Shown: positions 479 to 17,995 of the stretch, one piece after another
How positions within the stretch are numbered: position 1 is the stretch's first letter
Layout of the letters: every line of letters starts with the position of its first letter
Assembly (NCBI RefSeq): GCF_016827605.1
Contig: NZ_JAEPJQ010000001.1
Span: 372,001 to 436,000 of the forward strand
From: Hyunsoonleella ulvae
GTDB lineage: Bacteria; Bacteroidota; Bacteroidia; Flavobacteriales; Flavobacteriaceae
DNA length: 64,000 bases
Reading direction: 5' to 3'
The notes under the pieces: model-generated
Seen by the model: only the letters and a program-made list of their open reading frames with translations
Database searches by the model: none
Told to the model about the DNA's origin: nothing
Translations under genes and position numbers: made by a program

Positions 479-3400
479 ATACCCACGAATATATTCTTTT
501 TCTACAGTTGGAATCATAATGCATTTTAACCAAGATTATTTATTACACCCTATTAGGACAGATTTCACAGGAAAGAACGGAATAGGGAAATCACTTATTG
601 CCGACCTTTTTCAAATTCTTTTTATCTCAGATAAGCAAAAAATAGCGTTTGGTACTGAAAGCTTCAAGAACAATACGCGATTACTTCACACACTTCCTTA
701 TAAAACTTCAGACGCTTATATTTTTATTAATATTGAAGTAGAAAAAGATAGCTTTATCACTTTAGGCGTTAACATACCCAATAAAAAAAGCAGACCACTC
801 AAATCATTTTGGATTCTTAATAAAGCTCATGGTATAAATGATAATAATGAATTAAGTGATTTAAGCATTGCTAAAAACAACATACCATTTTTTAAGGATT
901 TTATTCATGATAATAGTATCCCACCAATAGAGAAACTTGCCATTAAACTAAGGGATGAAAAACAAATATATCTTAGAAGCTTTTCAGATAAGAATCAAAA
1001 AAATGAACTTTACACTTTCCTATTTGAAAATAGAGTATTACCAATCGACCTTTCTATAGAATCTAATCTTGACGCTTTTGCGAAAGTCATACAGTCGTTC
1101 TCAAAAGCAAAAACGTTAGACACAGATAGTGACGATAGCTTAAAGAGCTTTCTTTTTGAAGATAAAACAGACAACCTTAAATCTGAATATGAAAAACATA
1201 AAGCAGACTTAGAAAAACTCATTAATGATTACAAAGACCTTGAAGAATTAATTGCAGATATAGAAAATAAACAAGAACGTCTTACCAATTTAAGTTCTTT
1301 AAACAGCCTCTACCTCAATTCATTTAAGGAACACCTTTTAGTAGAATTCACGCATACTGAAAATGAAATTTTAAAAAAGAATCAATCATTAAAAGATATA
1401 AACACACAACTATTAGAAGAAAATAAACTAATTAAATCATTACAAACTGATAACCCAAAAGTTAAAAAAGCAGCTCTAAAAGCTAAAAAAGAACATGATA
1501 ATCTTGATAAAACCATAAAGCACTTAAAAGAATACAGCGACATTTTCGCTAAAATAGAAGCATTAGAATCTAAGGTGAATGAATTAGAATGTATTAAGTT
1601 ACCTGCAATTGAAAATGAAGCAAAAATCTCTATTAAGAATATCGAAACTTTTGAAATTTCGGAAATAAAACGTAGAATATCTCATTTTACAACTGTTTTT
1701 GAAGATTATGGTTCTCTTGAAAGCATCGAGCAAACCATTGAATCCCAAAAAGAGACACTTGATAATCGAAAGAGTTCACTCAAATCAAATAAAGCGGACA
1801 TTCGCGAATTACTTAACCTTCTCTCTAAAAATAAGAAAAACTCTCTGTTTGCTCAACTTTTATCGCAACAGAAAACATTAACTAAAAGTCAAGAAGCAAT
1901 TCTATTTGCAATCTTAAAAGGTGTTCATTGGAAGAAACCAAATGAAATAATCGCTGGCATTAGGTATGTTGAAAGTTTAGCATTTATGGATGAAAAATTT
2001 ATTGAAAATGATTCTGAAAATGATGGTTATTGGTTTAGTATGGGTGGCATAAAAGAGTTTATATCTTCAACAAAAGATAAACAATTATTCAAAGATAAAG
2101 ACAAACTTGGGAAAGCACTTTCTAATCAAACAACAAAACTGAACAACCAAATTAGTCTAATCGATAAAGAACTTTCACACATTGAATCCTTTTTTAGAGG
2201 TGAAAAATTTGAACAAAAATCAATACATATTGACCAAAAGTTAGACCAAAGAATTAATGACTTTTCTAAACTAAAAGATTTAAAACTTTCTTTAGGTTTA
2301 ATTCAAAATCTTGAAGTTAAAAAACAGAGCTTAAATACTCAAATTTTTAATGAGAACAAGCTATTAAAAAAAGTAGAGCTAAAAATCAATATTCCCATTG
2401 AAAAAAAGAACCTTGCTAATCAGCTAGAAAAACTTAAAGAAGAGTTAGAATCTATCGACATAAAAGAGCGAAACCTATCTTCTCAATATAGTTCTGATAA
2501 AAGTAAATTGGAAGAAAAACTACGATTTTTACCATCACTCAAAAACCAACCTTTGGATTTGGGAAAATCGCTTACAGATTTAGAAAATCAACGTAAAAAA
2601 ATTGAAACAGATTTTTACAAATATTTCCCAGATTTAGACATCAAGAATATAGATAAATCGAGGTACACAGGTATTGAAAGAAATCCTTTATATACTGAGT
2701 TTCAATCCAACAAAACTAATTATATAGGTGATTATAAAGGAATTATAAGCTCATTTGAACAAATTAAAAACGACCCAGAAATTAACGAACAAATTACACA
2801 AGTAACATATAACTTTGAAATACTTGAGCGTGTCCTTTTAGGTCCAAAAATAAAACACTCAGCTAATATTTCAGAAGAGCTTAAACAACTTAACAGTAGT
2901 AGATATAGAATGTTTGGTGCTATCCATGAAACGATGTTAAATATTTTTAAGCAAACCAAAGGAAAGTTTGATGAATATCATGAAACTATAAAAGCGTTAA
3001 ATAAATTTTTTAAAGGAAAGAAAATTAGTGGTAAATATTATTTTCAATTGGAATTTAACAAACCGTCAGACTTTGATATTAACTGGATTAATGATTTACA
3101 GGCCACATCCCAACAGGTGCATAGTGCAGGTGAACTTCCCTTAGGTGAATCTGTCGAGAGTTTTGTAGAGAATTTTTTCATGAAAACCACCAGTTTTAAT
3201 CAAAAAATAAAATTTTCTAATTTGCTTGACCCGAAGACGTATTTTGAGTTAAGGACAAAATTTACTGATGAGTTTGATAATGAAAAATCTGGTGGTAGTA
3301 CTGGCGAAAGTTATGCAGCGATTGTACTGCTAGGTATAGGTAGATTGTCCGTAGTTTTAAATGCTGATTTACCAGGACTTCGATTCCTTATTTTAGAAGA

Positions 3401-3644
3401 GGTTTCAAATTTAGATAATTTGAATTTTAGCACTTTCCCAAATATTGCTGAAGAATTCGGTTATCAGATTCTTACAATGACACCACGACCATTTGGCTCA
3501 GATACCGAACAAGGTTGGTATTTGCATCATTTAATAGAAGGTGCTGGCGATAAAAATATTAACTATCCTATTCCTAATAGTTATTTTAAAACCAATGAAG
3601 GCAGGGAAGATTTAGAAACGTATCTAAAAGCACAATCAAATTAA
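471..3644 (+). CDS. jetC: Wadjet JetC-like SMC/MukB-type ATPase
   Basis: A 1057-aa SMC-like protein. The N-terminal head has a Walker A motif GKNGIGKS (residues 34-41). Long charged coiled-coil stretches follow (about 230-460 and 550-730), separated by a short globular hinge-like segment (about 465-540). The C-terminal head has an ABC signature SGGSTGES (940-947) and a Walker B LRFLILEE (970-977). In Wadjet systems JetC is the motor that extrudes plasmid DNA so that JetD can cut it. The Walker B carries Glu where Asp is usual (EE instead of DE). There is no CxxC zinc hook, which argues against a Rad50/SbcC role. It overlaps jetB by 8 bases and is 2 bases from jetD, so the three are co-transcribed. 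Confidence 0.75.
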   Translation: MIKYPRIYSFSTVGIIMHFNQDYLLHPIRTDFTGKNGIGKSLIADLFQILFISDKQKIAFGTESFKNNTRLLHTLPYKTSDAYIFINIEVEKDSFITLGVNIPNKKSRPLKSFWILNKAHGINDNNELSDLSIAKNNIPFFKDFIHDNSIPPIEKLAIKLRDEKQIYLRSFSDKNQKNELYTFLFENRVLPIDLSIESNLDAFAKVIQSFSKAKTLDTDSDDSLKSFLFEDKTDNLKSEYEKHKADLEKLINDYKDLEELIADIENKQERLTNLSSLNSLYLNSFKEHLLVEFTHTENEILKKNQSLKDINTQLLEENKLIKSLQTDNPKVKKAALKAKKEHDNLDKTIKHLKEYSDIFAKIEALESKVNELECIKLPAIENEAKISIKNIETFEISEIKRRISHFTTVFEDYGSLESIEQTIESQKETLDNRKSSLKSNKADIRELLNLLSKNKKNSLFAQLLSQQKTLTKSQEAILFAILKGVHWKKPNEIIAGIRYVESLAFMDEKFIENDSENDGYWFSMGGIKEFISSTKDKQLFKDKDKLGKALSNQTTKLNNQISLIDKELSHIESFFRGEKFEQKSIHIDQKLDQRINDFSKLKDLKLSLGLIQNLEVKKQSLNTQIFNENKLLKKVELKINIPIEKKNLANQLEKLKEELESIDIKERNLSSQYSSDKSKLEEKLRFLPSLKNQPLDLGKSLTDLENQRKKIETDFYKYFPDLDIKNIDKSRYTGIERNPLYTEFQSNKTNYIGDYKGIISSFEQIKNDPEINEQITQVTYNFEILERVLLGPKIKHSANISEELKQLNSSRYRMFGAIHETMLNIFKQTKGKFDEYHETIKALNKFFKGKKISGKYYFQLEFNKPSDFDINWINDLQATSQQVHSAGELPLGESVESFVENFFMKTTSFNQKIKFSNLLDPKTYFELRTKFTDEFDNEKSGGSTGESYAAIVLLGIGRLSVVLNADLPGLRFLILEEVSNLDNLNFSTFPNIAEEFGYQILTMTPRPFGSDTEQGWYLHHLIEGAGDKNINYPIPNSYFKTNEGREDLETYLKAQSN

Positions 3645-3646
3645 GA

Positions 3647-4567
3647 ATGAATTGGACTGTATTAAAATCTCTACATCAGCTTTTTTTAGACCGAAAAACT
3701 AAAGTTAAGCATTCTCTAAAAGAAGATTCATCCTTTCAACTATTGGTATCTAATAAAGAAATTATAGAAGTAGGTAAAAACTATTTGCCTGGGCTTCTTT
3801 TTGATTCGTATTATAAAAAACATCATTTAAACCAGTTTCCTATTTATTTTGATTTTTTAGAAACCCATAATCTTTTAAAGAAACGATTTGAAGAAGAGGA
3901 TATAAAGACTCTAATTGAATTACAATCAAAGAAGCAAAGTGGTAATCTAATACCTAGTAGAGAACAATTAATTGAAGCACAAGAAACCGTTAGAGGGTTC
4001 TCAACAATGTTTTTTAAAAATGACAAGTACTTAGATAAAAAAGACTCATTAATAAAAGCCATTAATCAAATACTTGATATTACACTTGTAGAGAACAAAG
4101 ACCAACAGTATCTATACATACTTCAATGTGAAAAACCAGAATTAATTGTTCTTTGCGAAAATTTAGACTTTTTAAGAAAAGACAAAATGCCTCGTGAGAA
4201 TAATTATGAACTTTGGTACGCAGGTGGAAAAAATGTTCCCAAATTAAAATACGCAGATACGAGAGGACTTCCCATTTTTTATTCAGCGGATTGGGATGCA
4301 GATGGTTTAGAAATTTATGAGTTAGCCAAAGAAAAAATTCCGGAACTTCAACTTTTATTCCCAACGGCCATATCAAAAAGTATTGTTGATACTGAACATA
4401 GTAGTCATTGGAAAAATCAAGATAAACCAGAAGCACTTTCAAATTTAAGTTCTCATTTGTATTCAGAGAAGTACAAAGCAAAGATTAAAAAACTTATAGA
4501 GACGAATCATTGGATTATTGAGGAATCTAACGACTTAAAAAAAATGATTCAAAACAGTTTCTCTTGA
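3647..4567 (+). CDS. jetD: Wadjet JetD-like Toprim nuclease subunit
   Basis: A 306-aa protein whose C-terminal half has the Toprim hallmarks of the JetD/DUF2220 family: Glu171 in the segment CENLDFL, a GG turn in WYAGGKN (about 191-197), and the acidic triad DWDADG (Asp215, Asp217, Asp219). The N-terminal half (1-160) is helical and probably holds the DNA-binding arm. It is shorter than many JetD proteins. In known Wadjet systems this subunit cleaves small circular DNA loaded by JetABC. The ATG at 3647 follows the jetC stop by two bases. Its last 19 bases overlap the end of the convergent gene at 4549-5094, so the two transcripts are antisense at their 3' ends. Confidence 0.72.
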   Translation: MNWTVLKSLHQLFLDRKTKVKHSLKEDSSFQLLVSNKEIIEVGKNYLPGLLFDSYYKKHHLNQFPIYFDFLETHNLLKKRFEEEDIKTLIELQSKKQSGNLIPSREQLIEAQETVRGFSTMFFKNDKYLDKKDSLIKAINQILDITLVENKDQQYLYILQCEKPELIVLCENLDFLRKDKMPRENNYELWYAGGKNVPKLKYADTRGLPIFYSADWDADGLEIYELAKEKIPELQLLFPTAISKSIVDTEHSSHWKNQDKPEALSNLSSHLYSEKYKAKIKKLIETNHWIIEESNDLKKMIQNSFS

Positions 4568-5094
4568 ATATCTAAAATACCATCGTCTTTTGACACTTTA
4601 TTCTTTTTCAAAATTCCCTTAAGCGCTTTTCTTCGCTTATCATAAATCCATAATCTCAGATTTTTTAAGAGTCCTTTTTCATAATCCGACAGTTCTTTTG
4701 GTGCTATTTCAATCATAGCTTCTAATTGGTCTTTACTTTTGGTCTGTATTGCATATTGAAGTCCTAGCCATGTATAAATATTTACCCATTCTGTTTGCAT
4801 GGGTGCTTCAAAAGTTCTTGGCATCATGTAGGCTAAAGTCTCTGTAAGCGATGCCATTTTATCTCCTGTCATTGAGCACATTATTCTTGATAATTTTATT
4901 TTACCTAGAATGTCTTTTGGTATGGTGTCTTGCCATGCGCATTTAAAAACTATTATTGGACTCGCAAGGCAATCCATAAAATCGAAAACGAAATCGCTCT
5001 TTTCCTTTTTAGTTGGTTTTACTACCTTTTCCTTTATTATAATCGGCTTACATTCAAAACCGAAATCGAACTGAACTACTTTTAAATTTTCCAT
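4549..5094 (-). CDS. hypothetical mobile-element protein, 181 aa
   Basis: Not recognised as a known family. The protein starts MENLKVVQFDFGFE, has a basic stretch at about 20-35, then a mostly helical body with an aromatic region (WVNIYTWLG) and a basic C-terminal third. A longer frame begins at 5118 with MFNLKSHI. I reject that start because those bases belong to a repeated leader element (TTGTTTAACCTAAAATC), which gives the same false N-terminus in front of the gene at 7589. It lies downstream of the 55-aa gene at 5106-5273, probably in one operon. Its position beside parB and a DUF932-type gene suggests a conjugative-element maintenance or accessory role. It overlaps jetD tail-to-tail by 19 bases. 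Confidence 0.6.
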   Translation of the reverse strand: MENLKVVQFDFGFECKPIIIKEKVVKPTKKEKSDFVFDFMDCLASPIIVFKCAWQDTIPKDILGKIKLSRIMCSMTGDKMASLTETLAYMMPRTFEAPMQTEWVNIYTWLGLQYAIQTKSKDQLEAMIEIAPKELSDYEKGLLKNLRLWIYDKRRKALKGILKKNKVSKDDGILDIQEKLF

Positions 5095-5105: not shown

Positions 5106-5273
5106 TTAGGTTAAACAATTAGTTAATAATACCTGGTAATTTTCAGGATGCTTTTCCCTGTAATAAGCCAAATGACTTTCTCCACTATCGACATCGTAAT
5201 TTTCACTACTTACTCGATAATGTTCTTCTGCTTCTTGTAATGAGATGCTGGGTTTTTCAGATACTTGTTTCAT
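5106..5273 (-). CDS. small hypothetical protein, 55 aa
   Basis: An open frame of 55 codons starting MKQVSEKPSISLQEAEEHYR and ending at a TAA inside the leader-like segment before the next gene. It is acidic and rich in Glu, Ser and Tyr, with no Cys pair, membrane segment or recognised domain. The support is positional: its ATG stands about 20 bases after leader copy A, just as the parB and DUF932-type genes follow copies B and C, so this leader would otherwise have no gene. It could be a small regulator or anti-restriction-type acidic protein, but nothing in the sequence decides this. Confidence 0.5.
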   Translation of the reverse strand: MKQVSEKPSISLQEAEEHYRVSSENYDVDSGESHLAYYREKHPENYQVLLTNCLT

Positions 5274-5290
5274 AATTCTAAGATTTTTTG

Positions 5291-5421
5291 ATTAAACAAT
5301 ATTTGAGCAGTACCTAAACGGAAGCTAAAATCACAGCTCAAAAGGAAACGGAATAAATAAGCGTTGGATGATGCGTAGGCTTTATGCTGTAGTCTTTTGA
5401 TGGGTGTATTTTACGAGTTTA
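5291..5421 (-). promoter_or_regulatory. repeated leader element, copy A
   Basis: A segment of about 130 bp nearly identical to 7345-7475 and 8441-8571, always directly upstream of a minus-strand gene; copies A and B stay similar for about 20 bp further, to about 5440 and 7495. On the minus strand it runs: TAAACTCGTAAAAT, then CATCAAAAGACTAC, GCATAAAGCC, TTCCGTTTCCTTTTGAGC, and finally TTGTTTAATC near the start codon. The arm TTTGAGC can pair with GCTCAAA about 30 bases later. It probably forms a structured 5' leader or protein-binding site that co-regulates the three genes. Confidence 0.75.
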
Positions 5422-5479
5422 CCTTTGCGCTGATATTGATTGAATAGGTTCTACTTTCCCTTTTTTATGAAGAACTATA

Positions 5480-5512
5480 TAAAAAAATAAGAGCCAGCAC
5501 GAATGCTGACCC
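5480..5512 (-). terminator. Rho-independent terminator after parB-like gene
   Basis: On the minus strand a 7-bp stem GTCAGCA / TGCTGGC (one G-T pair) closes a TTCG tetraloop and is followed by TCTTATTTTTTTA. It lies about 20 bases after the stop of the ParB-family gene, before leader copy A. Confidence 0.85.
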
Positions 5513-5531
5513 TTACTTCCAACAACAAAAG

Positions 5532-7328
5532 CTAATCGTTTAATTCCTGAATTTTCTTTTCAAGTTTCTCTATGCGCTCTTTCAAACGTGCTTCACGCTT
5601 GTTTCTCTCTTCTGCATATTCCTTTTCAATATTGGCAATTTTAGTTTTATAATACCCTTGCATCGCATTGTAGAATGAAATGTTCGTTAAGTTATTAACG
5701 TGATTGCTTTCGCCAAAATGTACTTGCTTGGTAAGGATATACCGAATCAACTTATAAAAGGTTTCCTTTTTGAAATTCTTTTTGAAGTTCTCGACAGTTT
5801 CCACATCAGTCTTTTTAGATGTGTTACCCAATAATTTTGAAAAGTGTTTTTGCCGACCTACATAATCCACATTGTTTTCATATAGGGTTAATGAGAAAGC
5901 TACCATTTCATCTACCGAAAGTGATTTCTTCTTTTCGATATAATCGGTTTGACGAATCATCTGAACTATGTCTTCAAATTGCTTGTTGTGCTCAATATGT
6001 CGCTTTCTGATTTCTCTTTCGTTGATTTTAACGATTTGCTCTTCAGGCGAACACTCTGCCATTTTTCTATTTGCTAACGGTTCAGAGTATGTAGAATTTA
6101 CAGTTTTTGAATCTTCTATTACCTTCACAAAGATTGCTTTGTGAACATACGTTTTTGGATGAAACATAATACCTTTTACGAATCCATTTTCTTTTGCGGA
6201 ATTATACACTTCCAATTCTTCCTTGTAATTATCAACCGCTTCTTCAAGTTCAGCTTTCAGCTCATCTTCAGAATAGTCGTAATGTTGGTATTCTGTCTTA
6301 ATTGCTTCCATTGTAGGTTCAATAGGTTCCTCGATTATTTCAACATCGTCCAGAAGATAGACTTTCAATCCATTTTTTTCCAATTGCGAAATAATGAGCT
6401 GGTTATTCTCGTCATCTGCCCAGTATTTGCGAATTTCAGGAATCAACAGCATATTCTCTTTCTTCGATTTTTCTATCAGGTTCAAAAATGACTTGCTTTT
6501 CTTCGTTTCATAACAAGCTGATTTTGTACACACCATTTTATCATCGCCGAATAAATTGCCTTGATTTGCTGCGTTGAACGGACATGTTGTACAGGCACCA
6601 GCTTTTGTTATTAATTTTTCATCGACCACATCGAAAGGTGCATTCTCCAAATCATAAGTCTGGTTTTTAATCATCTGATTAATTTGATGGGCATTAAAAT
6701 CCTCTCCCATTGTTTCCAGCATCATTTGCTGTTCCTCTGGCTCGAAAAGCGCCACACCTACACCTAACGAAATTGTCATTTCGCCATTACGAACAAAGAC
6801 TTTAAAACCTTCAATTAGACCTGCTAATTTTAAACGTTGCCTTACAAAGTTTTCTGTTCTTCCCAACCGTTTTGAAATCTCCGTTGGCGCATATTTTTCG
6901 CTCAGGAATGCTACAGCTTCGGCTTCTTCAGTAGGTTCAACATCTTGTCTTTGCAGATTTTCGATAATTTGAATTTCCAGAACATCATTATTATCGAATG
7001 CTCTAACGATGCTCGGAATGGTTTTCTTTTTCGCCAATTTGCTTGCGCGATATCGACGTTCGCCCATGACGATGATGTAATCTTTTCCAGATTTTCGGAC
7101 CGTAATAGGTTGTAGGACACCGTGTTCTTCGATGCTTTCAGCCAGTTGTTTTAGAGCTTCCTCGTTAAAGGTTTTTCTTGGTTGCATTGGGTCAGGAATA
7201 ATCCTTCCGATAGGTAGTTCTTGAACTTGAAGTCCAATGGCGCCTTGTGTCAATTTCTTCTTGACTTCATTTTTCATGGTGGCTGTTGCCTTTCCGTTTT
7301 TGCTTGTAGTACTTGCTTTTGTTGTCAT
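5532..7328 (-). CDS. ParB/RepB/Spo0J-family protein, large mobile-element type
   Basis: A 598-aa protein. Residues about 34-130 form the ParB N-terminal (ParB/Srx CTPase) domain, with the PDPMQPRK segment, GERR (89-92) and ENLQR (123-127). A KorB-like helix-turn-helix follows at about 147-170. A Cys cluster (Cys246, Cys249, Cys267, Cys272) could bind zinc. A long acidic middle follows, and the last 35 residues are a charged coiled coil. Chromosomal ParB is usually about 300 aa, so this is the long form common on plasmids and integrative elements, where it supports partition or element regulation. No parA lies beside it here. It is preceded by leader copy B and followed by its own terminator, so it is monocistronic. 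Confidence 0.85.
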   Translation of the reverse strand: MTTKASTTSKNGKATATMKNEVKKKLTQGAIGLQVQELPIGRIIPDPMQPRKTFNEEALKQLAESIEEHGVLQPITVRKSGKDYIIVMGERRYRASKLAKKKTIPSIVRAFDNNDVLEIQIIENLQRQDVEPTEEAEAVAFLSEKYAPTEISKRLGRTENFVRQRLKLAGLIEGFKVFVRNGEMTISLGVGVALFEPEEQQMMLETMGEDFNAHQINQMIKNQTYDLENAPFDVVDEKLITKAGACTTCPFNAANQGNLFGDDKMVCTKSACYETKKSKSFLNLIEKSKKENMLLIPEIRKYWADDENNQLIISQLEKNGLKVYLLDDVEIIEEPIEPTMEAIKTEYQHYDYSEDELKAELEEAVDNYKEELEVYNSAKENGFVKGIMFHPKTYVHKAIFVKVIEDSKTVNSTYSEPLANRKMAECSPEEQIVKINEREIRKRHIEHNKQFEDIVQMIRQTDYIEKKKSLSVDEMVAFSLTLYENNVDYVGRQKHFSKLLGNTSKKTDVETVENFKKNFKKETFYKLIRYILTKQVHFGESNHVNNLTNISFYNAMQGYYKTKIANIEKEYAEERNKREARLKERIEKLEKKIQELND

Positions 7329-7344
7329 AATACTTAAATTTTAG

Positions 7345-7475
7345 ATTAAACAATATTTTTGCAGAACCCAAACAGAAGACAAAATTTCTGCTCAAAAGGA
7401 AACGGAATAAATGAGTTGTGGGCGAAGCGTTGGCTTTATGCCGTAGTCTTTTGATGATAATATTTTGCGAGTTTA
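7345..7475 (-). promoter_or_regulatory. repeated leader element, copy B
   Basis: Second copy of the leader, upstream of the ParB-family gene; similarity to copy A continues to about 7495. It diverges from copies A and C in the predicted stem: GCAGAA pairs with TTCTGC here, whereas A has TTTGAGC with GCTCAAA. The sequence changes but the pairing is retained, which supports RNA structure. The end box reads TTGTTTAATCTAAAAT, 10 bases before the ATG at 7328. Confidence 0.75.
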
Positions 7476-7537
7476 TCTTTGTACCAATATTGATATAGAT
7501 ATCTCTCCCCTTTTTTAACAGAAATAAAGTATGAATC

Positions 7538-7570
7538 TAAAAAATGCTCTAGTTTTAAGGTACTAGAGCA
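7538..7570 (-). terminator. Rho-independent terminator after DUF932-type gene
   Basis: The minus strand has a 9-bp stem TGCTCTAGT / ACTAGAGCA followed directly by TTTTTTAG. It stands about 20 bases after the stop at 7589 and just before the upstream side of leader copy B. Confidence 0.88.
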
Positions 7571-7588
7571 ACCTTTAATTATTGGATA

Positions 7589-8425
7589 TTAAACCATTTC
7601 ATATATTTCATTGAATAGTTTTTTATCCCACTTTTCTTGTTGTGAAAATGTCTTCTTCAATGTATTGTGTAACATGGAATTGAAGGCATTGTAGCCTAAC
7701 CATAAATTCGGTTCCTCGTTTAGCAGTAGTGCTTCGTAGTTCAAGGTTTCAATAACTTCACGGGATTTCTTTGAAGGCTCTTCGTTTTTATCACTACATT
7801 CATATTTGAACAGCTTAGTTTTATCCAAAATTGCTTTTACAAATTCTTTTGTGTCGATGATTTTAAAGTCTTTCATCTTTTCAAATTTCTTGACGATGGT
7901 ATAAAACTCATTGTTCAGGAACTTATCGAATAAGCCATTCATTCTTGGCATAATCAATTCTGTATTATTTTTGCTATGCTTTATGGAAAACTCAATTTCT
8001 GCTTGCGAAACGTGCAGTCCATTTGAGCATACTTTTCTGTAAAAACCAAAATGTCCGGAAGTCTTCTCACTACCATCATAAGAATTTTTAAATCGTAGCA
8101 TGGGTAGTATTAAATCTTCCTTGTTTTTCAATTTAAACTGATTGCTATCTTCAATGATAAAATCTATTATGAAAGACCTATCATTTCTATTAACGCTTCG
8201 TTTGTGATAGTTTAGTCCAGCATCCAAAAGCATCTGTTCCGCTTTTTTGAAGAATAATTGATTGGGAATATGGCCATAACTGTTTGATACCACATTAACG
8301 ATTTTACCATTTGAGATAATGGCATTTTCAAGTCCTCTACGAGATTCCATCTGCGTGAGGCTTTTTAAGGATTTCATTTCTGAAGAAACAAAAATCTCAT
8401 CTTGTTGTAAATTACTTAAATACAT
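7589..8425 (-). CDS. DUF932/DUF945-type mobile-element protein
   Basis: A 278-aa protein resembling the DUF932 (phage/plasmid-like TIGR03299-type) family: a central segment of the form SFIIDFIIEDSNQFKL, then GHFGFYRKVCSNGLHVS, then a helical C-terminal part with LLNEEPNLWLGYNAFNSML. The family is found on plasmids, phages and conjugative elements and its biochemical role is not established. The start MYLSNLQQ at 8425 is preferred over an in-frame ATG at 8449, because the extra residues MFNLKSNI are encoded by the repeated leader box. Leader copy C lies directly upstream and a terminator directly downstream. Confidence 0.72.
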   Translation of the reverse strand: MYLSNLQQDEIFVSSEMKSLKSLTQMESRRGLENAIISNGKIVNVVSNSYGHIPNQLFFKKAEQMLLDAGLNYHKRSVNRNDRSFIIDFIIEDSNQFKLKNKEDLILPMLRFKNSYDGSEKTSGHFGFYRKVCSNGLHVSQAEIEFSIKHSKNNTELIMPRMNGLFDKFLNNEFYTIVKKFEKMKDFKIIDTKEFVKAILDKTKLFKYECSDKNEEPSKKSREVIETLNYEALLLNEEPNLWLGYNAFNSMLHNTLKKTFSQQEKWDKKLFNEIYEMV

Positions 8426-8440
8426 AATATTTGATTTTAG

Positions 8441-8571
8441 ATTAAACAATATTTAAGCTAGAACCAAACGGAAGCTGAAATCACAGCTCAAAAGGAAACG
8501 GAATAAATAAGCGTTGGATATTGCAATGGCTTTATGCCGTAGTCTTTTGATGGGTGTATTTTACGAGTTTA
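8441..8571 (-). promoter_or_regulatory. repeated leader element, copy C
   Basis: Third copy, upstream of the DUF932-type gene and very close to copy A. The pairing TTGAGC / GCTTAA is kept through a G-T pair, and an internal AGCTG / CAGCT hairpin is visible. The upstream edge (TAAACTCGTAAAAT) is shared with A, but the bases beyond 8571 differ, which marks the boundary of the conserved unit. Confidence 0.75.
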
Positions 8572-8665
8572 ACTTGCTTCACATATTGTATGAATAACTC
8601 TTTTTTTTAATAACGCTCTTGTTACTAAATATAGATTAATAAAATAAAAATCAGGTATAATTTAA

Positions 8666-8703: not shown

Positions 8704-8726
8704 ACAAAAATACGCTTCAATAAGCT

Positions 8727-10691
8727 TTAATCAACCCATTTCATGCGCTGTAATCTAACAGCATTCAATATTGCTAACAATGCAACACCAACATCTGCAA
8801 AAACCGCTTCCCACATAGTTGCTAAACCACCTGCACCTAATATTAGAACAATTACTTTTACACCGAATGCTAATATGATATTTTGCCATACAATTTTGCG
8901 AGTGGAACGACTAATTTTAATAGCCCTAACTACTTTTGAAGGTTGGTCTGTTTGAATAATAACATCTGCGGTTTCTATTGCGACATCACTTCCCAATCCA
9001 CCCATTGCAATTCCTACATCACTTGCTGCTAAAACTGGTGCATCATTAATGCCATCGCCTATAAAAGCAATCTTATTATTAGGGTTTTGTTTTAAAATTT
9101 CAACTTCATTTAGCTTATCTTCTGGTAACAAACCGCCTTTAGCGATTTCGATATTTAACTCGGAAGCTACTTTTTGAGTAATGGAATCCTTATCGCCAGA
9201 GAGCATCATTATATTTTTGACACCTACTTTATGTAATGCTGTAATCGTTTCTTTTGCATCCTCTTTTAATTCATCTGCAATAACCACATAGCCTGCAAAT
9301 GTATTGTCTATAGATACCAAAACAATCGATTCTACAATAGTTTCTGTTTCTTCTAAAACATTAATATTATTGGCTGTCATTAGGGCTTTGTTACCAACTA
9401 AAACAGTCTTACCGTTTACGATACCTTTTAGGCCTTTACCTGCTATTTCAGATACTTCTGAAGCTTCATAATCTGTACCTTCATCTTTATATTCTAAAAT
9501 GGCTTTTGCGATTGGATGTGTGGATTGTTCTTCCATCGCCATCAGGTATTTCATAAACTCTTTCTCATCCCAATTGATAGCTTCAATCTTTTTAATTTTA
9601 AAGACGCCTTTCGTAACCGTCCCTGTCTTATCCATTACCAATGTATTTATCTTGGTCATGGCATCTAAAAATGAAGCGCCTTTAAACAAAATTCCGTTTT
9701 TTGAAGCTGCTCCCAATCCCCCGAAATAACCCAACGGAATGGATATAACCAAAGCACAAGGACAAGAAATTACCAAGAAAATTAAGGCTCTGTATAACCA
9801 ATCTCTAAACACATAATCATCTACAAAAAAGTATGGTAAAAATGTAACTGCAATAGCTAGAAACACAACTATTGGCGTATAAATTCGAGCAAATTGTCTA
9901 ATGAATAATTCTGTTTTCGATTTACGAGCTGTTGCATTCTGCACCATATCGAGGATACGTGCAATGGAACTATCCTTAAATTCTTTGGTGGTTTCTATTT
10001 CAATAACTCCATCCATATTAATACTTCCTGCAAATACTTTTTCGCCTTTTGCAATCGTATCAGGTTTGCTTTCGCCTGTCAATGCCGCTGTATTAAATGA
10101 GCCTTTTTCGGAAAGCAGAATACCATCTAAAGGGATTTTTTCTCCAACACGGACTTGAACTTTTTCTCCAATTTCAACCGTTTCTGGGCTTACAGAAATG
10201 TAATCATTATTGCGATATACCAAAGCTTCATTAGGACGAACATCGAGCAAAGCTTTAATATTACCCTTTGCTTTATTTACTGCTGCACTCTGAAATAATT
10301 CTCCAACCGCATAGAATAACATTACTGCTACTCCTTCAGGGTATTCGCCAATCACGAATGCACCTATGGTTGCTATAGACATTAAGAAAAACTCTGTAAA
10401 AACATCTCCTTTTTTAATGCTTTTCCACCCTTCCTTTATAACAGGAAAACCTACGGGAATATATGCCATAACATACCAAAGTATGCGAATCCATCCTTTA
10501 AAATATGGGAACATATCGAAATAGTCGATTGCAATACCAATCATTAACATTACAAAACTGAAAATTGCCGGCAAATAAATATTAAACTTCCCTATGTTCT
10601 CTGAACTACTATGATTGTGACCATCGTTTTGATTGTGATCTATTTCAGAATTTGGTTTTATATCTCGTAAATTGACTTTCTTTTTTTTCAT
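8727..10691 (-). CDS. zntA: P1B-type Zn/Cd/Pb-exporting ATPase
   Basis: A 654-aa heavy-metal P-type ATPase of the inner membrane that exports metal ions with ATP. Visible motifs are TGES (205-208), the transmembrane CPC (310-312) in the context SCPCALVISIPLG typical of the Zn/Cd group, DKTGT (354-358) with the phosphorylated Asp354, the STHP segment (about 391) and GDGINDAP (about 556). There is no N-terminal HMA domain; a His-rich tail (HNQNDGHNH, about 19-27) takes its place. It is last in the operon with the MerTP-like and GDCCVxC genes and is followed by a strong terminator. Metal specificity is inferred from motif type only. Confidence 0.9.
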   Translation of the reverse strand: MKKKKVNLRDIKPNSEIDHNQNDGHNHSSSENIGKFNIYLPAIFSFVMLMIGIAIDYFDMFPYFKGWIRILWYVMAYIPVGFPVIKEGWKSIKKGDVFTEFFLMSIATIGAFVIGEYPEGVAVMLFYAVGELFQSAAVNKAKGNIKALLDVRPNEALVYRNNDYISVSPETVEIGEKVQVRVGEKIPLDGILLSEKGSFNTAALTGESKPDTIAKGEKVFAGSINMDGVIEIETTKEFKDSSIARILDMVQNATARKSKTELFIRQFARIYTPIVVFLAIAVTFLPYFFVDDYVFRDWLYRALIFLVISCPCALVISIPLGYFGGLGAASKNGILFKGASFLDAMTKINTLVMDKTGTVTKGVFKIKKIEAINWDEKEFMKYLMAMEEQSTHPIAKAILEYKDEGTDYEASEVSEIAGKGLKGIVNGKTVLVGNKALMTANNINVLEETETIVESIVLVSIDNTFAGYVVIADELKEDAKETITALHKVGVKNIMMLSGDKDSITQKVASELNIEIAKGGLLPEDKLNEVEILKQNPNNKIAFIGDGINDAPVLAASDVGIAMGGLGSDVAIETADVIIQTDQPSKVVRAIKISRSTRKIVWQNIILAFGVKVIVLILGAGGLATMWEAVFADVGVALLAILNAVRLQRMKWVD

Positions 10692-10721
10692 TTGGTTTCC
10701 TTACTTATTGAAATTATTTTG

Positions 10722-10931
10722 TTAGCAGCAGCAGTTTTTTCCTTTTTGAATTGGCGGACATGGAACCGTTCCAAAAGAACAATACACACAACAATCTCCT
10801 TCATTCGGTTTCAAAACCGTTTTACATTTCTCGCATTCGTAGAAAAACTGACAAGCGTTTGTTGGCATCTCTTCAACCTTTTTATGTTTGCAATTTGGAC
10901 AAGTAATTTCTGATTTTAATATGACTTCCAT
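10722..10931 (-). CDS. GDCCVxC-domain small metal-binding protein
   Basis: A 69-aa protein with eleven cysteines: a CPNC pair near the start, a CEKC pair in the middle, the hallmark GDCCVYC (about 46-52), a CPP segment and a terminal CCC. This matches the GDCCVxC family of small zinc-ribbon-like proteins found next to mercuric-type transporters. It has no signal peptide, so it is probably cytosolic and may bind metal entering through the adjacent transporter. Its ATG overlaps the stop of the MerTP-like gene by one base, so the two are translationally coupled. Confidence 0.85.
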   Translation of the reverse strand: MEVILKSEITCPNCKHKKVEEMPTNACQFFYECEKCKTVLKPNEGDCCVYCSFGTVPCPPIQKGKNCCC

Positions 10932-11527
10932 TAATTCTGTTTTTTGTTAATTACTTTATAACCTGTTGCGTTAATTGCAATTTCAACTTCAGTTTCATTG
11001 GTTTTAGTTCTGTCGAACTCAACAACTGCATTTCCATTTTCGTAGGACGCTTTTGAGCTTAGAATTCCATTAAGTTTATTTACTTCGTGATTTACATGCT
11101 CTTCACAACTCGTACAAGTCATTCCGCTAATTTGAAATTTAGTTGTTTTAATGTCCGATTTGTCAACTACGACTATTTGCTTCTCTGTATTTGAGTAAAA
11201 AAATTTTGAATAAAATGGAAAAGCCAACATCACAATTGCAAAAACAGTTACTATTCCTAAAAACGCTTTTGACTGTATAAATTTCGAGTTTTCTTCAGTA
11301 TCACATTCGCAGTCAATTTTCTTTTGAGGTCTTAGTTTTTGATACCAAGCAAAACCAAGAATTAAAATTGTTAACCCTATTAGATAAGGTCTAAAAGGTT
11401 CTATCCAAGAAAACATTGAAGCAATCCCGCTTGTACCTGCAATCATTGCTAAAAAAGGTGTTATACAACACAATGAAGCTGCGATTGCTGAAATTAAACT
11501 CGTCCCTATTAATTTACTTTTCATCAT
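10931..11527 (-). CDS. MerTP-like fused mercuric/metal transport protein
   Basis: A 198-aa fusion. The N-terminal part resembles MerT, with an adjacent Cys pair in the first membrane helix (SLCCITP, about 20-26) and three membrane segments (about 5-35, 47-63, 88-107). The C-terminal part is a MerP-like HMA domain with GMTCTSC (about 134-140). In mer operons this type brings Hg(II) into the cell for MerA. Neither merA nor merR is present here; the gene sits with an exporting ATPase and a Fur-family regulator, so another soft or divalent metal may be the true substrate. A candidate operator and -7 box lie directly upstream. Confidence 0.82.
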   Translation of the reverse strand: MMKSKLIGTSLISAIAASLCCITPFLAMIAGTSGIASMFSWIEPFRPYLIGLTILILGFAWYQKLRPQKKIDCECDTEENSKFIQSKAFLGIVTVFAIVMLAFPFYSKFFYSNTEKQIVVVDKSDIKTTKFQISGMTCTSCEEHVNHEVNKLNGILSSKASYENGNAVVEFDRTKTNETEVEIAINATGYKVINKKQN

Positions 11528-11545
11528 TATTGTACTTAATTAAAA

Positions 11546-11553
11546 CAAAGATG
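11546..11553 (-). promoter_or_regulatory. candidate -7 promoter box of MerTP operon
   Basis: On the minus strand CATCTTTG, one base from the Bacteroidota TAnnTTTG consensus, 18 bases before the MerTP ATG. The 15-bp palindrome lies 13 bases upstream, where the -33 element would be. Confidence 0.5.
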
Positions 11554-11566
11554 AGTTAAAATACAA

Positions 11567-11581
11567 TGCAACGGAAGTGCA
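11567..11581. promoter_or_regulatory. candidate Fur-family operator, site 1
   Basis: TGCAACGGAAGTGCA, an imperfect 15-bp palindrome lying between the Fur-family gene and MerTP. It shares 12 of 15 positions and its position relative to the -7 box with the perfect palindrome at 17981-17995. It overlaps the expected -33 region, which fits a repressor site. Confidence 0.6.
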
Positions 11582-11582
11582 T

Positions 11583-11999
11583 TTATAATCCACTACATTT
11601 ATCACAAACACCTTTTACAACCAAGTTTATGTCTTCGGAAATAAAGCCATTTGGCACTTTTATTTGTGGAATTTTATGCTCGGTAAGACAAACCGTTTCG
11701 TTGCAGTTATTACAATGAAAATGTAAGTGTAAATCGGTTTCAATATCACAGTTACAGCCTTTTTCACAAAGCGCATATTTAGTAATGCCTGTGCCATCAT
11801 CTATTTGATGTACAATCGTACTTTCTTCAAATGTTTTTACTGTTCTATACAATGTAGTTCTATCTGCTTTATCAAAAGCATTTTCGATATCACTTAATGT
11901 TACTGCTACTTGTTTCTCAGCAAGAAATTTATAAATTAATAAACGCATTGCCGTAACACGTATATTTTTTGACTCTAATAATTGTTCTATGGTTTGCAT
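11583..11999 (-). CDS. Fur-family metal-responsive repressor
   Basis: A 138-aa Fur-family regulator. The winged-helix DNA-binding half (about 1-85) includes the recognition region DRTTLYRTVKTFEE. The dimerisation half has the histidine-rich HLHFHC segment (about 91-96) and two Cys pairs (CNNC at about 96-99 and CDKC near the C-terminus) for structural zinc. Its position between a CzcBA efflux operon and a MerTP-ZntA operon suggests a zinc- or cadmium-type sensor rather than an iron sensor. It is co-transcribed with czcB upstream (2-base gap). Two matching palindromes, in front of the first gene of each transcription unit, are its likely targets, which would also make it autoregulated. Confidence 0.88.
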   Translation of the reverse strand: MQTIEQLLESKNIRVTAMRLLIYKFLAEKQVAVTLSDIENAFDKADRTTLYRTVKTFEESTIVHQIDDGTGITKYALCEKGCNCDIETDLHLHFHCNNCNETVCLTEHKIPQIKVPNGFISEDINLVVKGVCDKCSGL

Positions 12000-12001
12000 A
12001 A

Positions 12002-13207
12002 TTAATGTTCGTGTTCTGCTTCTCCTTTTTTCATTTCAGCAATTAAATAATACGCATTATTATAAGCGAATTTTGTGGCTTTATCTTGTTCTTCAGCAAA
12101 TTTAACCGCTATCCAATTACCATCTTTTTCTCCTAAAAGCACTTCAACTGGCTTAAAACTCCAATCGTCATTTTCTTTTTCTACTGAAAAGACATAAAAT
12201 CTATCGCCTTCTTTTATAATTGCGCTTTCTGGCAATGCATGAGTTTCTGCGTTCTCAACTTGAATTTTACCTTTAATATACATTCCTGGAATTAGATTCC
12301 CTTTTTTGTTTTCAATTTCAGCATGGACGTGTAGTGCTTTAGGATTATCTTCAAAAGTTTTGCTTACCGAATAGATTTCTGCTGTAAGATCTTCGTCTGT
12401 ATTAGATTGTAAATTGAAAATCACTTTTTGACCTTTCTTTACTTTATAAACGTCTTTTTCGAACACCATTAAATCTGCATGAACGTGATGCGTGTTTACG
12501 ATTTCAAAAAGTTCGGTTTGCGGTTCTACATATTGTCCTGTTTTTACTTCAACTTTTTGGACAAAGCCTTCTATTGGACTACGTAATGATATACTTTGAG
12601 CAATGGTTCCATTTCGTACTGATGACGTGTTTATGTTTAATAGTCTCAATTGAGCTTCCAATCCATTTACCATAGCTTTAGAGGCATCATATTCTGCTTC
12701 GGCTTTTTGAAAACTTGCACCAGAGCCAACTCCTGCATCATATAATTTTTGCTGACGTTCATAGTTCTTCTTTAAAAAATTACTGTTGCTAAAAGCATTT
12801 AAATAATCGGTCTGCATTTTTATAATATTAGGATGAGATAAATATGCAACCACTTGACCTTTATTAACTTTATCGCCTTCAATAACTTTTATTGATACCA
12901 CATTTGCACCAACTACAGAAGTTATTGCTGCTTCGTTTTGTGGTGGTACTTCTAATGTGCCATTGGCTTCTACATAACCGCTCATATTACGCAATGCTAG
13001 GGTGTCTGTTTTCATTTTTAAGGCATCAAACTGTTGTTGTGATAGCATCACTTCTTCTTCATCACTATGAGCTTCTTCGGCTTCTGGCTTTACATCTTCA
13101 TTGTGTGCATGACCATCGCCTTCTTTATGGCTTTCTTTATTTCCACAGGCAACTACTAAAAGTGAAACTGTTAGTAATGTTAAGATTATATATCGTGTGT
13201 TTTTCAT
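12002..13207 (-). CDS. czcB: CzcB-type RND efflux periplasmic adaptor
   Basis: A 401-aa membrane-fusion lipoprotein: lipobox in LLVVACG (Cys21), a His/Glu-rich linker (about 28-50, HKEGDGHAHNED) likely to bind metal, then barrel-sandwich halves around a hairpin (about 85-215) and a beta-barrel domain. It links the inner-membrane pump CzcA to the outer-membrane channel. The ATG at 13207 stands 4 bases after the end of the CzcA-TolC gene, and the Fur-family gene follows after 2 bases, so all are one operon. Confidence 0.9.
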   Translation of the reverse strand: MKNTRYIILTLLTVSLLVVACGNKESHKEGDGHAHNEDVKPEAEEAHSDEEEVMLSQQQFDALKMKTDTLALRNMSGYVEANGTLEVPPQNEAAITSVVGANVVSIKVIEGDKVNKGQVVAYLSHPNIIKMQTDYLNAFSNSNFLKKNYERQQKLYDAGVGSGASFQKAEAEYDASKAMVNGLEAQLRLLNINTSSVRNGTIAQSISLRSPIEGFVQKVEVKTGQYVEPQTELFEIVNTHHVHADLMVFEKDVYKVKKGQKVIFNLQSNTDEDLTAEIYSVSKTFEDNPKALHVHAEIENKKGNLIPGMYIKGKIQVENAETHALPESAIIKEGDRFYVFSVEKENDDWSFKPVEVLLGEKDGNWIAVKFAEEQDKATKFAYNNAYYLIAEMKKGEAEHEH

Positions 13208-13211
13208 TTTC

Positions 13212-16200
13212 TTATTTATTAAAATATTGTAGTTGAAATGTGCTTTCTAAATAATTTATTAATGCTTCTTGAGCTTGTAATTCAGATTGAATAGCTTCTT
13301 TTATGAGTTGTGTAAACCCTGTATAATCTATCTCTCCTTCTTTATAGGCAAATAAAGCCCCCAATTTTTGTTCTTTCACAAGTGGTAACACCTCATTTTT
13401 ATAGAAAAACCAAGACGTTTTCCATTTTTGATAATTCTCTTTTGATTGTACAAACTTGGATTGTACTTCTTGTTTTTTGAACTGAATGTTCGTATCAGCA
13501 ATTTCCTTATCGATTTTTGCGGTTTTAACCTTTGCTTTATTTGTACCAGACAAAAAAGGAATGGAAACACCTGCTTGATAGGTATAAAACCCTGAATTAC
13601 CATTTAAGTTTTGTAAACCACCTTGAAAATTTAACTTGGGTAAATTATCTGCTTTGGCAGCTTTATATGTGGCTTCTGCTTCTGTTACCTGTAATTGTGC
13701 TATACCATATAAGGGATGTTCTTCTAAGTTAAAAGTATCAACATCAATTTCACTAGTGATTTCAAAATCATTGGGAACGGTATAGAATGTATCAGAAACC
13801 AACCATAGGTTTAACTGTTGTAATGCAATACTATATTCACTTTTTGATTGCATAAATTTATTTTGAATCTGTAAAGCTTGATTTTTAGCTGCTGAATATT
13901 CTAACCTTGAAATCGCTTCTACTTCATAATTTAATGCTACTGCTTTTTCAAAATTGGTATAAATTGAATCTAACTCTCTGTATAAATTATAATTCCTTTT
14001 ACTCTGCAAGGCATTTGCCCAGGCTTTTTTCACTTCCAATTCTAAATCTAATTCTGAAAGTTGAAACGCTTTTTGAGCTAGTTGAATGCGTTGTTCTTGC
14101 AATCGTTTTTTTGCAGAAATACCAAACACATCAATGTTGCTTTGACCAATTCCTATAGTTGTATAAATACCATTTCCGTTATTAATTTCCTCGCCTCCAG
14201 TAAAAATTTGAGTCGTTCCAAAATCATAAGCTGTACTTTTTAACTGCTCTTGTTTGCTGATTTCTAATTGCTTTTGTTTTAAAAGTGGAAAATTTTCTTT
14301 TGATAATTTAACCGCTTCATTCATCGAAATGATTGGCAACGTATCGTTAACTTCTTGGGCGTTTCCTGTTATTGGTAACAAAAACATAAAAGCTACCATA
14401 GCAGTAACTGTAATCACTTTTTTGTCTGCTCTAAACTTGAATGATTTGTTTTCTACCCAATGATATAATATAGGTAAAACGAACAATGTTAATAGTGTAG
14501 ATGTTAATAAACCACCAATTACAACCGTTGCTAAAGGCCGTTGTACTTCTGCACCAGCTGATGCCGAAATTGCCATAGGTAAAAAGCCTAAAACATCTGT
14601 AAAAGCGGTTAGCATAATTGGTCTAATTCTTCGTTTTGTTCCCTCTATAATTCTATCTTTAAGATTGGTAACACCTTCATCTTTCAACTCATTCAAACCA
14701 CTAATCATTACTAATCCATTTAAAACCGCAACACCAAATAAAACGATAAAACCGACTCCTGCCGAAATACTAAATGGCATATCTCGTAACCACAACGCTA
14801 CGACACCACCAATGGTTGCCATAGGAATTGCGATATAAATCATTAAGGTTTGTGGCAATGATTTTAAAGCAAAATAAATAAGTACAAAAATGAGCAATAA
14901 CGCAATTGGTACAACTGTTTGCAGTCTATTACTAGCACGTTCTAAATTTTCAAAAGCACCACCATAACGAATAAAATAACCTGATGGCAACTCTAGTTTA
15001 GCATCTAACTTGGATTTTATTTCTGTTACCAATGATTTTACATCACGTCCCCTTACATTAATACCAACATAGGTTCTTCTGTTTGTATTATCCCTACTTA
15101 TTTGCATTGGACCGGCTTTGTAGCTTATATCTGCAACTTCCCGAAGTGGAATTTGAGTACCAGACGGTAAGTTGATGTACAAATTTTGAACATCTGAAAT
15201 ATCCTTTCGATTTTGGGAATTTAATCTTACTACTAAATCGAATCGTTTTTCGCCTTCAAAAATAATTCCTGCTGTACCACCTGCAAAAGCCGATTGCACA
15301 ATTTGATTTAAGGTGTTTATTTGCAGTCCGTATTGGGCTAATTTATTTCTATTGTAAGTAATAGTCATTTGTGGCAACCCTGTTGTGGCTTCGGCTTTCA
15401 TATCTCCAATACCTTCAGTTCCTGCAATGATTTTGGATATTTCTTCTGCTTTTTGAGACAGGACATTTATATCTTCTCCATAAAGTTTTATGGCAATGTC
15501 TTCTCTAACACCTTCCAGCAATTCATTAAAACGCATTTCGATAGGTTGTGTAAATTCATAGTTAACACCAGGAACCATTTCTACCGCTTCTTTCATCTTC
15601 TCTATTAATTCATCTTTTGTAGTGGCTGTTGTCCATTCGCTTTTTGGTTTTAAAATCACAAAAACATCGGCTAAATCCATTGGCATTGGGTCTGTTGGGA
15701 TTTCTGCAACACCAATTCGACTTACAATTTTTTCGACTTCTGGAAACTTTGCTTTTACAATTTGTTCAATTTTTGTGGTCGTTTCAATCGTTTCTGTAAG
15801 CGAGCTTCCAGGTTTTAAAATGGCGTGAAATGCAATATCTCCTTCATCGAGTTGTGGGATGAATTCGCCTCCCATTCGACTAAACATAAAAACTGTTAGT
15901 CCGAATAGCACGACTGCAATGCCTATAATCCATTTTCCTTTTTGTATCGCTTTAACTAATAAAGGTTGGTATTTTTCTTCTACCCAATGCACAAATTTAT
16001 CGCCATAAGATTTTTTGTCTGACTTTGGTGCTCTTAAAACCAAGGCAGACATCATTGGCACATACGTCAAACAAAGTACCATTGCACCAATCATTGCAAA
16101 AATGAAAGTCAATGCCATCGGTTTGAACATTTTTCCTTCAATCCCTTCTAATGCCAAAATAGGCAGAAAGACAATTAGAATAATTAGCTGACCAAAAAAG

Positions 16201-17546: not shown

Positions 17547-17622
17547 AGAATTATAGTTATAATGAATTTATAAATAAAGAATAGTTACCAAAGAGTATCG
17601 ATGGTAGCATAGATTTATAATA

Positions 17623-17639
17623 CACCTGCGTAGCAGGTG
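17623..17639 (-). terminator. hairpin after DUF6660-type gene
   Basis: A 7-bp perfect stem CACCTGC / GCAGGTG with a 3-base loop, 5 bases after the stop codon at 17644. No U-run follows, so it may be a weak terminator, a processing site or mRNA stabiliser between this gene and czcA. Confidence 0.45.
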
Positions 17640-17643
17640 CTCA

Positions 17644-17955: not shown

Positions 17956-17960
17956 CGTAG

Positions 17961-17968
17961 CAAAGATA
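17961..17968 (-). promoter_or_regulatory. -7 promoter box of the czc operon
   Basis: On the minus strand TATCTTTG, an exact match to the Bacteroidota TAnnTTTG box. Its edge is 5 bases from the ATG of the first gene, and the candidate operator is 12 bases upstream. Confidence 0.6.
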
Positions 17969-17980
17969 TAAATTATTTAA

Positions 17981-17995
17981 TGCAATGGTATTGCA
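17981..17995. promoter_or_regulatory. candidate Fur-family operator, site 2
   Basis: TGCAATGGTATTGCA, a perfect palindrome with 6-base arms and a 3-base centre. It matches site 1 (11567-11581) as TGCAAYGGWAKTGCA and has the same placement 12-13 bases upstream of the -7 box, covering the -33 region. Confidence 0.65.

Follow-up and report, generated by a model that had tools for sequence, protein, structure and literature searches.

What is the role of three near-identical segments that stand directly before separate genes of a mobile element in Hyunsoonleella ulvae? They lie in a 64,000-nucleotide (nt) stretch of this flavobacterium (contig NZ_JAEPJQ010000001.1, positions 372,001 to 436,000 of the forward strand), hereafter the window. 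The initial annotation had read them as structured leaders, either a cis-regulatory RNA or an operator. From features of the sequence, we consider it likely, with a probability of about three in four, that they are Frpo-like promoters that would work in single-stranded DNA (ssDNA), in the leading region of an integrative conjugative element (ICE).

The segments form one direct-repeat family of 162 nt (5285-5446, 7339-7500 and 8435-8596), whose second and third copies are 78% and 86% identical to the first, and these three copies are the only matches in the genome at E ≤ 0.001. The family had been described as about 130 bp conserved at three sites; the repeats are real, but those end points clip the -7 box and the closing clamp described below. 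The motif CATCAAAAGACTAC matches exactly in all three copies and, with two mismatches, at one further site (43013), so that four matches at up to two mismatches compare with 0.65 expected by chance. Each copy contains one long imperfect hairpin (Table 1) that ends 22–24 nt from a minus-strand start codon. As first described, the gene differs each time: a pair encoding proteins of 55 and 181 amino acids (aa), a ParB-family gene and a DUF932 gene.

On the + strand of copies 2 and 3, AAAAGGAAACGGAATAA, a spacer of 25 nt and TTATGCCGTAGTCTTTT form an unequal inverted repeat, which we refer to as the core; the second arm of copy 1 carries one change. The core pattern is present in 21 of 395 sampled Bacteroidia genomes from 11 families, while a reversed control pattern scored 0 throughout the Bacteroidia genomes listed. 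With one copy as query, BLAST detected relatives in 11 of the 296 genomes sampled from the order (H. ulvae itself is included in both counts). The pattern also occurs in 3 viral_contigs stretches and at least 119 genome_contigs stretches; among the matches listed, 75 of 80 titles are Bacteroidota as judged by reading them, and the other five are metagenome-assembled genomes or bacteria labelled otherwise. The relatives extend well beyond recent duplications, and they often precede mobile-element genes. Because the strict pattern skips copy 1 and the ssb-side hairpins introduced below, these counts are lower bounds. The 352 pattern matches, which count both strands, reduce to 156 distinct copies, of which 154 have the usual unequal arms. 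Sufficient flanking sequence was present for 149 of these, and removal of copies at least 80% identical left 94 representatives; 69 of the 94 have a -7 box in range, 18–55 nt past the core. The core pattern and folds of the whole hairpin were used in place of a covariance model. The differences between the two arms are maintained across copies except in L062 (Prolixibacteraceae bacterium JC049; L numbers are our locus handles), where the arms are identical inverted repeats, unlike those of the other 154 copies; this equal-armed copy, counted in both orientations, was left out of the 154.

Bacteroidota promoters read by sigma-ABfr have a -7 box TAnnTTTG and a -33 box TTTG (PMC7366714). In copies 1 and 2, the + strand of the 3' arm reads TTTTG-N20-TAnnTTTG. 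Among the 94 representatives, TAnnTTTG occurs on the 3' arm of the presumed transferred strand in 31, against a shuffled mean of 9.0 and maximum of 15. It occurs in none on the other arm's gene-direction strand. With a relaxed motif the counts are 70 and 3 of 94, respectively (shuffled 29.4, maximum 37). The commonest distance from TTG to TA is 20 nt, with 25 instances over the 69 representatives, and a TTG precedes the -7 box by 18–22 nt in 20 of the 21 flavobacterial representatives and in 20 of the other 48. In double-stranded DNA the 3'-arm promoter faces away from the gene. A conserved promoter on this opposite strand would therefore be useful to the gene only when that strand is folded as ssDNA. 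The boxes of the 3' arm match the sigma-ABfr promoter (PMC7366714); here, a single folded strand would provide both promoter strands, one from each arm.

In the gene direction, the TAnnTTTG box seems, if anything, scarcer than expected. Within 95 nt upstream of the core, a gene-direction TAnnTTTG occurs in 1 of 92 representatives compared with 3.9 in shuffles (relaxed motif, 9 of 92 compared with 16.5), and from 40 to 200 nt upstream in 7 of 92 compared with 10.4 (relaxed, 15 of 92 compared with 32.0). Copies 1 and 2 have no gene-direction promoter of the TAnnTTTG type within 200 nt.

The arms also evolve together. In divergent relatives the outer arms differ in sequence and retain their pairing; the mean native fold is -30.2 kcal/mol, compared with -21.9 kcal/mol when arms are swapped between dissimilar copies. 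The native fold is better than the mean of its own swaps in 73 of 94 representatives, and better than all 20 swaps in 47 of 94. Single examples that we picked gave z-scores of -6.9 (L020, -42.4 against -17.8 kcal/mol, a very stable stem), -6.1 (L046), -5.3 (L044), -4.3 (L115), -4.2 (L013) and -1.1 (L057). Within the window's own group (46 flavobacterial sequences, 45 distinct), the long-range pairing that joins the element's two halves has 37 cells, counted by sequence and not by event, that changed on both sides, compared with 13.4 after shuffling. Its covariation score is 0.062 compared with 0.033, and for both measures none of 500 shuffles reached the observed value. Sliding the partners by 1–3 columns leaves 0–4 two-sided cells. 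Because a single copy supplied the structure, the proportion of cells that pair, 95.5%, is biased towards it. The initial annotation had instead proposed covariation in a local stem (TTTGAGC/GCTCAAA and variants); there, no pair changed on both sides among the 46 relatives, and paired cells make up 94.6%, the same as when columns are shuffled. It is the long-range pairing, and not the local stem, that covaries.

Across the 69 representatives, the -7 box tends to fall at a predicted bubble: the A, n and n of TAnnTTTG have mean pairing probabilities of 0.34–0.37. Pairing of the box is below that of the flanking positions in 57 of 69 (Wilcoxon, 3e-9) and below the arm mean in 56 of 69. A second dip in pairing lies 17–19 nt before the box. 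The clamp CAATAT/ATATTG comes after the -7 box in the window copies; four of its six pairs are kept in all 45 sequences and the others in 43 and 36, and pairs that do not vary speak neither for nor against the structure.

Gene orientation agrees with expression out of the folded + strand. Of 126 distinct copies, 77 have open reading frames (ORFs) of 100 aa or longer on the predicted side only, 8 on the other side only, 11 on both and 30 on neither; at cut-offs of 60 and 150 aa, predicted and other side compare as 68 to 5 and 52 to 10. Representatives alone gave 48, 6, 6 and 19 of 79 (predicted, other, both, neither). Five profiles built from protein clusters had 108 same-strand matches (93 of them downstream) and 2 opposite-strand matches across the 94 loci, although two of the five are overlapping DUF932 profiles that may match the same gene.

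The genes behind the hairpins are also of recurrent kinds. Pfam was run on 114 proteins, namely those that start with M and have at least 95 aa, taken from the first three ORFs downstream in each of the 94 representatives (116, minus 2 duplicates). The families found were DUF932 (24), SSB (20), RadC (8), DUF6943 (4), ParB_N (3), PRTRC_E (3), AbiEii (3), DUF6266 (2), ArdA (1) and mobilization families (1 each). An SSB, DUF932, RadC or ParB gene lies within 2.5 kb in 52 of the 85 representatives with at least 1 kb of downstream sequence. The 181-aa protein behind copy 1, which has no Pfam match, is also encoded behind a hairpin in L047 and L074.

We then considered where these hairpins sit on the element. 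Left of the window, the + strand encodes a tyrosine integrase, a TraG-type ATPase and TraM, followed on the minus strand by a type IV coupling protein, a DUF5712 protein, a mobA-like protein (no Pfam match), RadC and SSB. The series from coupling protein to SSB lies entirely on the minus strand, on the side that transcripts from the hairpins would face. The DUF5712 protein is the putative relaxase, by its position and kinship. The origin of transfer (oriT) usually lies before mobA. The relaxase is typically found on the lagging side (PMC11541004). With oriT before mobA and the relaxase side lagging, RadC, SSB and the window genes would form the leading region, and the + strand would be transferred 5' end first. 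This presumed transfer is of the same strand, and in the same direction, that the hairpins require.

Other loci bear on this arrangement. In L074 one strand carries, in order, the hairpin and genes for the 181-aa protein, SSB, a DUF6876 protein, a mobA-like protein, DUF5712 and the coupling protein, and L129 looks similar. Among the loci of the 154 copies, relaxase matches lie on the same strand downstream in seven (L054, L060, L074, L077, L096, L129 and L135, of which L077 was itself a query of the search), on the opposite strand upstream in five, and on the same strand upstream in one (L065). A fourth, divergent hairpin precedes the element's own ssb-radC genes left of the window (L165:17940-18110, about 369939-370109 of C1 in the genome; z -2.0). 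It has the same plan: a stem, a bubble with TATTTTGC, and a clamp with a T/A run. Such ssb-side hairpins, found by motif, lie upstream of 6 of 19 SSB matches, the element's own included; the relatives are in L074, L095, L096, L073 and L104, and in the last four of these the letters of the stem differ while pairing is kept.

The repeats, the phylum-wide core, the strand-specific promoter, the co-evolving arms, the position of the bubble, and the orientation and content of the genes behind it are computed features, and by these sequence-visible features the hairpins are most likely Frpo-like, with + presumed to be the transferred strand. The mechanism that we infer would begin when the + strand enters a recipient, 5' end (oriT) first, and each segment folds on itself. 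The 3' arm would then serve as the non-template strand of a Bacteroidota housekeeping promoter, TTTTG-N20-TAnnTTTG, with the 5' arm as template, and folding would turn this promoter towards the minus-strand gene. The -7 box would lie in or beside the unpaired bubble, whose far side the CAATAT/ATATTG clamp would shut. RNA polymerase may start in the bubble, roughly 30–45 nt before the ATG, and leave the hairpin along the single strand into the gene. Transcription from the incoming single strand would mean that establishment proteins (ParB, DUF932, the 55/181-aa pair, and SSB-RadC from the fourth hairpin) are made before the second strand is synthesized. Once the second strand is made, the arms would pair with their own complements, the promoter would face away, and expression would end.

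Several results weigh against this account. The window copies fold weakly with DNA parameters (z -0.3, -1.0 and -3.3 for copies 1–3), the lowest-energy DNA fold of copy 1 joins both arms at an energy no better than that of shuffles, and most flavobacterial copies fold no better than swapped arms do. The lowest-energy fold of copy 3 retains the core stem and loses the clamp. Because folds are weak in the flavobacterial group, the case there rests on the relatives and on the 37 compensatory cells, which are a count over sequences that are themselves related. By pairs rather than cells, the long pairing has four with two-sided change, a number reached by 70 of 500 shuffles, and nine further pair types, reached by 500 of 500. 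Copy 3 is also the least typical in its promoter, as its -7 box is degraded to TAACTTG and a TAnnTTTG in the gene direction lies at 8705-8712. Among the representatives with at least 1 kb downstream, 33 of 85 have no SSB, DUF932, RadC or ParB gene within 2.5 kb (for some, only 1.5 kb was present), and several of 20 gene maps show a gene converging on the hairpin (e.g. L020, L021 and L026). Finally, in L070, L100, L150, L154 and L161 the genes for the relaxase and for a MobC-like protein are on the opposite strand, flanking the hairpin at its 3' arm; the relaxase of L100 belongs to PF03432.

How do other explanations account for these data? The initial annotation was right to see a repeated, structured and probably cis-acting element before separate mobile-element genes, one that would define a common regulon. 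Its two candidates for that element, an RNA leader and a protein operator, are less likely. A cis-regulatory RNA leader, transcribed with the gene from an upstream double-strand promoter and folding in the 5' untranslated region, would fit a conserved, structured sequence 22–24 nt before start codons, and whatever folds as a hairpin in one strand of DNA would fold likewise in RNA from the opposite strand; copy 3 has a gene-direction TAnnTTTG. Such a leader needs an upstream promoter, however, and gene-direction TAnnTTTG boxes are rarer than in shuffles upstream of the core and missing within 200 nt of copies 1 and 2. The local stem shows no compensatory change, and a search of Rfam returned only a transfer RNA (tRNA) in the window at the gathering threshold and nothing over the three copies up to E 5, the 13 sub-threshold matches all missing them. 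We regard the leader as improbable. A double-stranded operator, in which the core arms would be half-sites for a regulator encoded by the element, such as ParB, would explain why the core is an inverted repeat of conserved sequence on an element that carries a ParB gene. A protein site, on the other hand, does not need outer arms that co-evolve while diverging or core arms that differ in a fixed way, and ParB matches occur in 17 of 94 representative loci, so an operator by itself is very unlikely; the core could nevertheless act as one alongside a promoter function.

The promoter itself, lying between inverted repeats and facing away from the gene in double-stranded DNA, resembles an invertible, phase-variable promoter in its OFF orientation, as in Bacteroides. 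Bacteroidales invertible promoters sit between recombination repeats, whereas the hairpin here is about 140 nt. Such promoters are known in the Bacteroidales (PMC4747536, PMC8748976), and a Bacteroidota promoter with inverted repeats is common to both. Here, though, the orientation to the gene is nearly fixed (the 108 same-strand and 2 opposite-strand profile matches above) and the arms are unequal, the outer ones just partly complementary, which makes inversion hardly credible. The remaining possibility shares the single strand with our preferred reading: a single-strand initiation (ssi) site that mainly primes the complementary strand, through RNA polymerase or primase, and drives gene expression secondarily or not at all. 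Both roles are given to Frpo in the title of Masai and Arai 1997 (cited in PMC9849209 and PMC11541004), some copies lack a leading-type gene immediately behind the hairpin, and a faintly similar hairpin outside the Bacteroidota, on plasmid pCfr-33795cz, lies near a replication gene. The bias in gene orientation (77 to 8 of 126 copies), the short and constant distance to start codons and the gene families behind the hairpins point to expression as a selected role, and we consider a purely or mainly priming site unlikely.

A single-strand promoter reading is further supported by comparison with known systems, the closest of which are Frpo of the F plasmid and the Frpo/ssi-like promoters of ColIb-P9. 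Frpo1 and Frpo2 of F are 92% identical, lie about 5 kb apart, and are predicted to form ssDNA stem-loops with promoter boxes; they are required for early expression of ygeA and ssb/yfjA in recipients (PMC9849209). In the F sequence (NC_002483), the leading region encodes SSB, a ParB-family protein and PsiB, a DUF932 gene lies near traM, and the regions upstream of ssb and upstream of the gene before DUF932 are 89% identical over 559 bp. The two systems are closely parallel in gene set and layout: both have repeated, near-identical segments before separate leading-region genes, and they share SSB, ParB-family and DUF932 proteins. They differ in their boxes (TTTG and TAnnTTTG of Bacteroidota here, TTGACA and TATAAT in Frpo of F) and in their carrier, which here is a chromosomal ICE with a DUF5712-type mobilization gene and in F is a MOBF plasmid. 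Homology to Frpo of F would indicate common descent and is not needed for function; blastn of the 94 representatives against F 50000-67000 gave two matches at E ≤ 0.01 (E 0.003), of 16 and 21 nt, which are chance-like and lie outside the 89% repeats.

Predicted ssDNA promoters upstream of leading-region genes, with the genes on the transferred strand, have been surveyed previously (Samuel et al. 2024, PMC11541004). The survey started from known Frpo/ssi sequences and TTGACA/TATAAT boxes, and 'Bacteroid' and 'DUF932' each occur 0 times in its main text. A literature search for single-strand promoters in Bacteroidota, which had preprints and most subscription journals outside its scope, found none. 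Somewhat less firmly than for the three window copies, we favour the view that the hairpins are a phylum-wide family of ssDNA promoters for the unusual Bacteroidota RNA polymerase. This family, with no sequence kinship to F Frpo, would have arisen independently of it, would serve the same establishment genes (SSB, ParB and DUF932) as in enterobacterial plasmids, with at least two hairpin lineages in one element, and would switch off upon second-strand synthesis.

Some loci depart from the common gene arrangement. In L020, L021, L026, L112 and similar loci the hairpin stands beside a DUF6943 gene (assigned by Pfam in L020 and L112, by eye in the others) and a converging gene, which has no Pfam match in L020; these loci lack ssb and DUF932. 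In L053 and L115 the hairpin lies directly before a DUF6266 gene (by Pfam in L053), outside any recognised transfer region. On plasmids, BLAST with a window copy found no match, and L013, a relative from another family, gave three weak matches (E 0.05) to Morganella and Citrobacter plasmids. One of these gammaproteobacterial plasmids, pCfr-33795cz, has a hairpin that by eye is partly similar (L167:2480-2570), near a replication gene; at E 0.05 the likeness is possibly due to chance.

The rest of the element carries further cargo. The + strand from 113 to 4567, and on to about C1:370506, encodes proteins of 121, 1057 (SMC-like) and 306 aa, which lie in the presumed leading region on the other strand. 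This cluster resembles the Wadjet (JetABCD) defence system; PADLOC matched JetC only weakly (E 2.5e-4) and left three other proteins without a match. Metal-efflux genes occupy the minus strand from 8727 to 28308, with a P-type ATPase, a MerT/HMA protein, a Fur-family regulator and, as judged by eye, RND pumps; at 13212-17546, an ORF of 1444 aa may encode an outer-membrane factor joined to an RND pump. To the right of this cargo, a minus-strand tRNA gene (32958-33039) is a possible attachment site of the element.

Table 1. Predicted hairpins of the window, their parts, and the genes behind them (positions are those of the window).
Feature	Position	Strand	Basis or remark
Copy 1, predicted single-strand promoter hairpin	5297-5438	+ (presumed transferred strand)	repeat family and DNA fold
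Copy 1, outer clamp CAATAT / ATATTG	5297-5302 / 5433-5438	+	
Copy 1, 5' core arm AAAAGGAAACGGAATAA	5340-5356	+	core conserved across Bacteroidota
Copy 1, 3' core arm TTATGCTGTAGTCTTTT	5382-5398	+	one change from consensus
Copy 1, -33 box CTTTTG	5394-5399	+	
Copy 1, -7 box TACCTTTG	5420-5427	+	inside predicted bubble
Copy 2, predicted single-strand promoter hairpin	7351-7492	+	core arms 7394-7410 and 7436-7452
Copy 2, -33 box CTTTTG	7448-7453	+	
Copy 2, -7 box TATCTTTG	7474-7481	+	
Copy 2, clamp ATATTG	7487-7492	+	
Copy 3, predicted single-strand promoter hairpin	8447-8588	+	core arms 8490-8506 and 8532-8548
Copy 3, -33 box CTTTTG	8544-8549	+	
Copy 3, degenerate -7 box TAACTTG	8570-8576	+	
Copy 3, clamp ATATTG	8583-8588	+	
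55-aa ORF, behind copy 1	5106-5273	-	mechanically called ORF; followed by the 181-aa protein
181-aa protein, second gene behind copy 1	4549-5094	-	189 aa from an upstream TTG
ParB-family protein, 598 aa, behind copy 2	5532-7328	-	Pfam ParB_N E 9.9e-31, HTH_ParB 8.3e-6
DUF932 protein, 278 aa from ATG, behind copy 3	7589-8425	-	Pfam DUF932 E 2.1e-15, scanned as the 286-aa form from an upstream TTG

For the F plasmid, early expression from the single strand as it enters has been demonstrated (PMC9849209). If the single-strand promoter reading is true in Bacteroidota, such promoters would be a general tool of conjugation, one that may have evolved convergently. The core pattern would then flag establishment genes, such as those for DUF932, RadC-like, 181-aa and DUF6943 proteins, in a phylum that is rich in conjugative elements, and it would predict from sequence alone which strand of an element is transferred.

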